Origin: a virus
Reading direction: 5' to 3' (one strand)
DNA: 22,396 bases
Virus record (IMG/VR): IMGVR_UViG_3300021957_000345
Location: 1 to 22,396 of that record
Position numbers and translations under genes: made by a program. This document shows, one piece after another, positions 3,350 to 4,360 of the stretch. The notes beneath the pieces were generated by a model. It had not been told where the DNA came from and did no database searches. It saw only the letters and a program-made list of their open reading frames with translations. Every line of letters starts with the position of its first letter. Position 1 is the stretch's first letter.

Positions 3350-3904
3350 TTATTCTCCAAATAGTTGTATGTGTTTGTCTTGTACTTGGGTGTGTCCGTT
3401 ATCTTCTGCCCACTCCCAAATTTGCGTAGCCTTTTCTATGTCTTTGTTCTTGTGTGCTTCCACCAACTTGTCCATTGCCTTGTTAATCTCAAGGTTTCTT
3501 TTCTGTGTTGGTGTTGGTTTCTTACTAGCAGAGTTACCATCATCATCTTCGGTTGGTAATCCTAGCATACTTATAAGTGCATATCTCCGAGCGTAAGTTA
3601 TACTCGCCCCCTGCACTTGGGGAGTGGGGTTTGGCATTAACAATCTAACTTCCGAATCAATGAATTGTTCGGGGTTATCTTGAAGAGATAATCTTGTGTA
3701 AAGTATATCTTGATTTTCCTTTGTTACTTTCGGGCATTGAGTCCACACTAATCCTAATGATTCACAAACAGGATTGATGGTATCAATCACATTGTTAATG
3801 TCTGCGTAATTAGATTTAAAGAAAGGGTTCTTTGCATTCTTACTGACTGCACCAATCATCCCTCTTGCCTGTAATATTACTGAGTATATATTTCTATCTT
3901 TCAT
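3350..3904 (-). CDS. erf: ERF-family single-strand annealing recombinase
   Basis: An essential-recombination-function type protein that anneals complementary single strands in phage recombination. Taking the ATG at 3902-3904 gives 184 residues. The typical ERF core is visible: NPFFKSNYADINNVIDTINPVCESLGL, then a beta-rich stretch, then VQGASITYARRYALISMLGLPTEDDDGN, the most recognisable ERF signature. A Lys-rich linker and an acidic helical tail follow. AAAGGAGG lies 4 nt before this ATG. The frame stays open back to a GTG at 3961, but that codon lies inside the T-arm of the tRNA-like RNA and lacks a ribosome binding site, so it is rejected. It is followed one base later by the 126-aa phage protein and belongs to the same leftward operon as the SSB-like protein and helicase. 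Confidence 0.93.
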   Translation of the reverse strand: MKDRNIYSVILQARGMIGAVSKNAKNPFFKSNYADINNVIDTINPVCESLGLVWTQCPKVTKENQDILYTRLSLQDNPEQFIDSEVRLLMPNPTPQVQGASITYARRYALISMLGLPTEDDDGNSASKKPTPTQKRNLEINKAMDKLVEAHKNKDIEKATQIWEWAEDNGHTQVQDKHIQLFGE

Positions 3905-3938
3905 CTTGCCTCCTTTGGCTTTGTTAAAATTGCTTAAA

Positions 3939-4075
3939 GGTATAGGGTGGACTTGAACCACCGACTCAGTACTTCTGTGTGTATACCCACTTCATACTGC
4001 GTTCCTTATCTAGTAACAGGATGGTTTGCATGAGAAATATCTTCCTCCCTTCCCCACTAGCTGAACTACTATACC
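3939..4075 (-). ncRNA. oversized tRNA-like RNA (137 nt), anticodon unresolved
   Basis: Read 5' to 3' on the minus strand, this segment starts GGTATAG-TA-GTTC-AGCT, like a tRNA acceptor strand, linker, D-stem and A-box. It ends with T-stem GGTGG, T-loop TTCAAGT, CCACC and acceptor strand CTATACC. The 7-bp acceptor and 5-bp T-stem are perfect. GTTC (10-13) pairs perfectly with GAAC (72-75). One base later CAGTA (77-81) pairs with TACTG (105-109), then AGTC and the T-arm, a cloverleaf-compatible order. The D-loop would be 58 nt and the anticodon loop 23 nt, about 60 nt longer in total than a tRNA, and no standard anticodon loop is clear. Flanks extend the acceptor to a 12-bp inverted repeat. No CCA is encoded. 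It could be a degraded tRNA, an intervening-sequence tRNA, or a tRNA mimic. Confidence 0.6.
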
Positions 4076-4087
4076 TTTAAACAATCT

Positions 4088-4360
4088 CTAATAATTATTA
4101 TACACTTTCTTTACTGACTTAGGAATATTTTTTTCCTTCCTGTAATATTGCTTTGCCATTTTATGTACCATCTTGACTGCGTACATCATCTGTCTTGGTG
4201 TGTCGTACTGTTCTAAGTGTACGACTGGCGTTCCATTTGCTATCTTCCTTACTCTGATTGGGTGTTCGTAGTATACAACATGTGTCCACTTACTACCCTT
4301 GCTTATCTGTAAGGCACAACGCCATCCTTCTTTAGTGTGGTGATTAATTACTTTATACAT
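4088..4360 (-). CDS. hypothetical basic protein, 90 aa
   Basis: A 90-residue basic protein of unknown function and the first gene after the strong promoter at 4395-4423. The ATG has AAAGGA about 10 nt upstream. The N-terminal half is beta-like with aromatic residues (MYKVINHHTKEGWRCALQIS, then WTHVVYYEHPIRVRKI). The C-terminal half is helical and Lys-rich (MMYAVKMVHKMAKQYYRKEK). The end of the coding region contains a TATAAT that may be the promoter for the tRNA-like RNA just downstream. I recognise no family. The high positive charge would suit nucleic acid binding. Confidence 0.75.
   Translation of the reverse strand: MYKVINHHTKEGWRCALQISKGSKWTHVVYYEHPIRVRKIANGTPVVHLEQYDTPRQMMYAVKMVHKMAKQYYRKEKNIPKSVKKVYNNY
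4090..4106 (-). promoter_or_regulatory. candidate promoter -10 element upstream of the tRNA-like RNA
   Basis: On the minus strand AGTGTATAATAATTATT has TATAAT at 4097-4102 and differs at one position from the site at 2732-2748. It overlaps the last codons of the 90-aa gene. Transcription from it would start about 15 nt before the tRNA-like 5' end. There is no good -35, so it could be chance, since it also codes for Val-Tyr-Asn-Asn-Tyr. Confidence 0.35.

Follow-up and report, generated by a model that had tools for sequence, protein, structure and literature searches.

A conserved and exchanged family of marine phage RNA cassettes with a predicted tRNA-like core and subtype-specific palindromic loops

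What is the RNA that lies between two early genes of a phage, carries the sequence boxes of a tRNA and shows no clear anticodon? The window analysed here, a stretch of viral DNA of 22,396 nt, contains such an element at 3939–4075, and a sequence-only reading had offered three explanations for it: a decaying tRNA, a tRNA with unknown intervening sequences, or a tRNA mimic. That reading gave no strand. The RNA strand is the minus strand, running from 4075 to 3939; the segment 4090–3925 folds on this strand with −59.1 kcal/mol (z = −6.5), equalled by none of 200 shuffled sequences, and the plus-strand fold of the same locus gives z = −3.6. The whole cassette, delimited by its fold and by its absence from the relative L003, covers 3926–4087 (minus strand). 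It fills the intergenic gap from the stop codon of a 90-aa gene to the ribosome binding site of an ERF gene, its 5′ end directly abutting the stop codon and its 3′ end stopping ∼10 bases short of the Shine–Dalgarno (SD) sequence.

All of the neighbouring features are on the minus strand. The downstream gene (3350–3904) encodes an ERF single-strand annealing protein (PF04404, E = 2e-25; phrog_2324, E = 4e-31), and its SD sequence, AAAGGAGG, is located at 3916–3909. The upstream 90-aa gene (4088–4360) is conserved as a neighbour in relatives, and had no significant protein family match in searches that included the PF and phrog collections. Upstream of the 90-aa gene is the sequence that most resembles a promoter in the whole stretch, TTGACA-17-TATACT with an extended −10 element (4423–4395) and 11 of 12 consensus matches; judged by consensus only, it is the probable start of the transcript that contains the cassette.

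The predicted fold is based upon four helical elements. From its 5′ end the RNA forms the first strand of a long clamp, P1 (4069–4087), made up of an outer extension followed by the acceptor sequence GGTATAG (4075–4069) and paired with 3945–3926. The 7-bp acceptor GGTATAG/CTATACC was correctly recognized from the sequence; its outward extension is also real, and the total length comes to 18 bp, including a U·G pair. After U8 and A9 (4067–4068) the strand enters the D arm (4001–4066), where the D-stem GTTC/GAAC is followed by A14 and G15, an inserted helix CTAGTG/TACTAG and a distal hairpin. A 1-nt joint leads into the arm at the position of the anticodon arm (3967–3999), which comprises the 5-bp stem CAGTA/TACTG, an internal loop GAA/AGAA, and a 3-bp stem GTG/CAC that closes an 8-nt loop. 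The D-stem, the joint and the 5-bp stem are as first described. The two large loops are not: the 58-nt ‘D-loop’ holds the second helix, with compensatory changes, and its hairpin cap, and the 23-nt ‘anticodon loop’ is the internal loop together with the short stem and octaloop. The octaloop (3980–3987) is GGTATACA, with the palindrome GTATAC at its centre; as RNA it reads G-GUAUAC-A, and the self-complementary hexamer (3986–3981) is a predicted kissing loop. The strand then continues through the variable region AGTC (3963–3966), ending with C48, the Levitt partner of G15, into the T arm GGTGG-TTCAAGT-CCACC (3946–3962), which had likewise been identified and has a canonical T-loop UUCAAGU (3957–3951). 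It terminates with the 3′ strand of the acceptor (3945–3939) and of the outer clamp (together 3926–3945), with no CCA.

Further members of the family were reached in IMG/VR by means of DNA patterns and protein neighbours. Matches in the first pattern scan were mostly chance coding sequence. Of 33 records searched over their full length, 17 contain a member, always as a single copy; the members come from uncultured marine phages, and the RNA ranges in size from 110 to 172 nt. A covariance model trained on five members (R1) recovered five further members, all in ssb leaders, and detected the divergent L007 with E = 4e-6 although built without the L006/L007 type. A retrained model (R2) scores L006 at 62 bits, L006 being a near-twin of L007, which was in the R2 training set. 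The 16 matches to R1 amount to 13 distinct sequences in the alignment.

The pairing is well supported by these relatives. In an alignment of five sequences made with MAFFT, both partners vary in 14 of 35 pairs, and pairing is possible in 93.5% of the cells, compared with 34–46% when the partner strands are slid. With 13 sequences there are both-side changes in 24 of 35 pairs, and the paired fraction of cells is 88.7%, the slid controls giving 33–47% and none of 500 shuffles matching the observed pairing; this alignment was fitted to the structure and is hence biased in its favour. Both-side changes are found in 8 of the 12 modelled pairs of the P1 clamp (family alignment) and in 3 of 5 pairs of the T arm, where 96.9% of cells are paired (13 sequences), and compensatory changes occur in the D-stem and the inserted helix. 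The distal hairpin of the D arm differs in length among members, and the module at the anticodon-arm position varies by subtype. U8, A9, A14, G15 and C48 are invariant in all members (L153 after correction for a one-base register shift), and 12 of 14 members have the T-loop UUCARU. The invariance of the D box was partly selected, because some of its letters were used in the search patterns; members found by the model only are unaffected. The comparison thus shows a fold in which four helical parts, namely the acceptor and the D, third and T arms, make up a tRNA-like core that a long P1 clamp closes. A conserved, riboswitch-like aptamer in the D arm was considered and rejected, the distal part being free in both length and sequence.

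Of the three initial explanations it is the mimic that survives. Relatives were searched for loss of the pairings or for an intact tRNA homologue, and the acceptor, D, T and third-arm pairings were found to be conserved with covariation. The palindrome in the apical loop, the optional nature of the insert and the annealing-protein gene that follows it had escaped the sequence-only reading. What the alignments show is an RNA family, conserved and exchanged, in which a tRNA-like core is combined with palindromic loops specific to each subtype. Overall we favour, with some reserve, the interpretation that these are accessory, horizontally exchanged, self-pairing tRNA-mimic cassettes that marine phages carry in their early mRNAs.

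The accessory and exchanged character is best seen from the genomic contexts. In L003 the site is empty and the flanks of the window site are joined directly (GAGATT to TTAAC). In a different phage group the RNA is located in ssb leaders, most of which are 120–129 nt in length and which measure 278–301 nt with the RNA, placed between the 5′ hairpin and a second hairpin. The RNA is dispensable there, since ∼90% of related ssb leaders are without it. The third context is the leader of a Gp2.5-like gene (L144 and L153). The three contexts are mutually unrelated, and the RNA of L034 closely resembles that of the window in surrounding DNA that is unrelated except for the terminase region. Every context lies directly upstream of a gene for a single-strand annealing or binding protein: ERF, a protein with a weak single-strand-annealing match (E = 1e-3), or the Gp2.5-like protein.

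This shared position, together with the length of the P1 clamp, could indicate a cis-acting leader or intergenic element that controls the processing, stability or translation of the downstream annealing-protein gene, through RNase III acting on the clamp or through RNase P, with dimerisation, if any, coupling two mRNAs. We consider this possible but rather unlikely. The flanking hairpins of the ssb leader and the pairing of its SD sequence are predicted not to differ between leaders that have the insert and those that lack it, the SD sequence in the window lies outside the RNA and is predicted to be largely unpaired, and most relatives have no RNA at all. It may simply be that replication leaders tolerate inserts, and three contexts are a small number. 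A selfish cassette, spread among such sites by recombination or transposition with no benefit to the phage and using the clamp as a terminal inverted repeat, would be consistent with the near-precise presence and absence at the same site, with the same cassette in unrelated contexts that have no flanking similarity, and with the other structured cassettes that share the ssb-leader site (L117, L123 and L135). It is nevertheless improbable, for the conserved tRNA core and the compensatory changes in every arm exceed terminal repeats, and there is one copy in each of the 17 positive records, which also led us to reject a multi-copy mobile element.

The self-pairing character of the favoured interpretation rests upon the arm loops. 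Six different 6-nt palindromes are found in an arm loop, one for each subtype. Four are presented in octaloops of the form G-N6-A: GUAUAC in the window, L001, L034, L075, L083 and L151; GUCGAC in L010; UUGCAA in L153; and AGUACU in the D arm of L006/L007. ACUAGU is in a 7-nt loop in L144, and UCUAGA in loops of 13–17 nt in L052, L072 and L124; for one UCUAGA member the unconstrained minimum free energy structure favours an alternative pairing by 1.7 kcal/mol. Folding of the same phage DNA gave 935 octaloops, a conservative background because it includes a few family members; 12 of them are centrally palindromic (1.3%) and 121 are flanked by G and A (13%). The probability that the octaloop palindromes coincide by chance is ∼5e-7 before correction for the choice of loop, with GUAUAC and GUCGAC counted as one event plus a factor of 1 in 4 for the changed centre. 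The six palindromes are not fully independent events, because the arm that carries GUAUAC is homologous to the one with GUCGAC. Apart from GUCGAC, the hexamers by themselves form weak duplexes, with energies computed for 20°C of −6 to −7 kcal/mol.

In the dimerisation initiation site (DIS) of HIV-1, purines flanking the loop palindrome are required (PMC7357161), and in OLE and GOLLD palindrome switching has been used as an argument for symmetric bridges (PMC12286853). From the resemblance of the palindromes with their G and A flanks to the former, and of the switching to the latter, two copies of the RNA are predicted to homodimerise via a kissing loop. The hexamers might instead be sites in the DNA, such as an operator or a recombination core, and the octaloop with its stem does form an imperfect inverted repeat in the DNA as well (GTGgGTATACaCAC). 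That is very unlikely, given that the G and A mismatch around the hexamer is retained in all four octaloop subtypes, the stem in L006 requires G·U pairs available to RNA only, the other pairs of the arm covary, and the hexamer changes with subtype as the site of a single protein would not.

The RNA is not a decoding tRNA, though it has the same architecture, namely a 7-bp acceptor, D-stem, T arm, the core nucleotides U8, A14, G15 and C48, and the T-loop. The acceptor helix continues as the P1 clamp, of 10–22 bp across members, so that pairing runs several base pairs past position 73 and there is no free 3′ end to accept CCA, which is absent. Base 73 is T, A or C, paired or bulged inside the longer helix. 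Since the helix is paired so far beyond 73, it is doubtful that RNase P or RNase Z would recognize the RNA, as had been suggested. The D arm forms a long helix. A 7-nt anticodon loop is also missing: the third arm is an exchangeable module of several kinds, differing in sequence and length, and the impression that no normal anticodon is present extends to the family, whose members have no consistent one. Neither Rfam nor standard ARAGORN gives a tRNA or tmRNA at the locus, the Rfam tRNA model being silent in the window even at E = 10; a tmRNA was rejected on the negative tmRNA mode of ARAGORN and the lack of a tag ORF. A tRNA gene with introns, or one in decay, is scarcely credible: despite the canonical D- and T-box sequences and the tRNA-His, tRNA-Thr and tRNA-Ser that ARAGORN calls in three members when introns are permitted, those anticodons conflict between homologues, the same search finds nothing in the window, no intact homologue was found, and decay is excluded by the strong covariation. 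The tRNA-Pyl (CTA) called by ARAGORN inside a family member (L124, 4836–4922) is probably a chance call, because it leaves the covarying acceptor unused and is absent from close homologues.

Rfam searches of the window returned chance matches only, even at E = 10, and no match to GOLLD, ROOL, OLE or group I or II introns was obtained for the window and the members scanned. The family is not described in the literature covered by our partial search. Together this would make it a structured phage RNA family that is absent from Rfam and undescribed in that literature. A bacterial chromosomal origin was also sought: one D-arm pattern gave six matches in 84,980 bacterial and archaeal species genomes, none of them a member. 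BLAST searches of cultured phages and plasmids gave nothing, or just tRNA T-arm and other short matches, and the replication regions of HTVC103P and HTVC115P contain no member. The closest cultured relatives of the DNA polymerase of one carrier are pelagiphages (∼50% identity), and the host is therefore probably a marine bacterium.

How might a self-pairing tRNA mimic act? The RNA would be transcribed along with the early operon, and the cassette would fold independently of it. Two copies could then join at the self-complementary hexamer, which lies at the end of one arm, into a symmetric dimer of tRNA mimics. Such a stable mimic might engage a host factor that binds the elbow or T-arm surface of tRNA, such as a nuclease or modifying enzyme directed at tRNA, and dimerisation would add avidity or stability. 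Action on a host factor is the most likely role, if a weakly supported one. More specifically, and tentatively, the family may consist of small mimics that homodimerise through interchangeable palindromic kissing loops, each subtype pairing with its own kind only, and that move as insulated cassettes between the leaders of annealing-protein genes, possibly serving as RNA-based counter-defence against tRNA-targeting systems.

Other RNAs share parts of this design. Y RNAs (YrlA) are bacterial noncoding tRNA mimics bound by Rsr/Ro; tRNA mimicry is common to both, and the phage family has no Rfam match. The similarity with tRNA itself extends to the acceptor, D-stem, T arm, U8, A14, G15, C48 and T-loop UUCRARU; the differences are the missing anticodon and CCA, the extended acceptor and the enlarged D and third arms. 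As in tmRNA a tRNA-like domain lies inside a larger RNA, here with no tag ORF. The HIV-1 DIS has a 9-nt loop and belongs to a retroviral genome leader, unlike the 8-nt loops in a tRNA-like RNA of dsDNA phages. It has in common with them a 6-nt palindrome in an apical loop with conserved flanking purines (PMC7357161). The pRNA of phi29 is also a phage RNA that multimerises via kissing loops, but uses two distinct complementary loops and not one palindrome (PMC7357161), and has no tRNA core. GOLLD, ROOL and OLE are likewise structured phage or bacterial RNAs of unclear function, GOLLD and ROOL often being near phage tRNAs, and in OLE and GOLLD the palindromes of symmetric kissing loops switch in evolution (PMC12286853), as the six hexamers do here. 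These RNAs are large, GOLLD often exceeding 800 nt, with folds of their own, in contrast to the 110–172 nt and tRNA-like core of the present family.

If the favoured interpretation is true, the architecture of tRNA has been repurposed as a transferable, self-pairing RNA module of marine phages. Natural RNA homo-oligomers would be extended to RNAs of ∼110–170 nt, suited to structural work, with one scaffold offering a panel of natural, differing kissing loops, and RNA-based interference with the host enzymes that act on tRNA would have a concrete candidate. These questions can be put to the test directly with the alignment, the model and the relatives that have an empty site.

Other structured RNAs occur in the same leaders or elsewhere in these phages. 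A conserved ssb leader occupies the 130 nt before the ssb-like start in L064, L070, L077, L084, L091, L101, L127 and relatives. It has a long 5′ hairpin at the start of the transcript, followed by a hairpin with the loop GAGACC, GAGTCC or GAGGAC that is complementary to a stretch adjoining the SD sequence (GGTCTC, GGGCTC or GTCCTT), giving a covarying pseudoknot. This may autoregulate the ssDNA-binding protein, as T4 gene 32 does. The ssb leader of L117 and L118 (L117, 4041–4436) has a different structured insert of 260 nt at the same site. L006/L007 have a terminal stem similar to that of the insert (GGAAGCACTTGG/AAGTGTTTCAC), and the sequence TATGAAGATGGTCG, in one arm of the insert, recurs in L010; the L117 insert gave only sub-threshold matches to Rfam and was not assigned to a known RNA. 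A near-identical structured cassette with a likely pseudoknot (AGTAGTTTGTTTAGA..AACTACT..GAGTT..GGTAGTTTTAAACTC..) is found in two unrelated contexts, the ssb leader of L123/L125 and positions 3455–3560 of L010, where it comes after the tRNA-like RNA. A fourth structured insert, of ∼90 nt, is located at about the same leader position in L134–L136. Type II hammerhead ribozymes scoring above the Rfam gathering threshold are present in L101 (2096–2161), L077 (647–710) and both L123 and L125 (425–488), phages that belong to the same ssb group.
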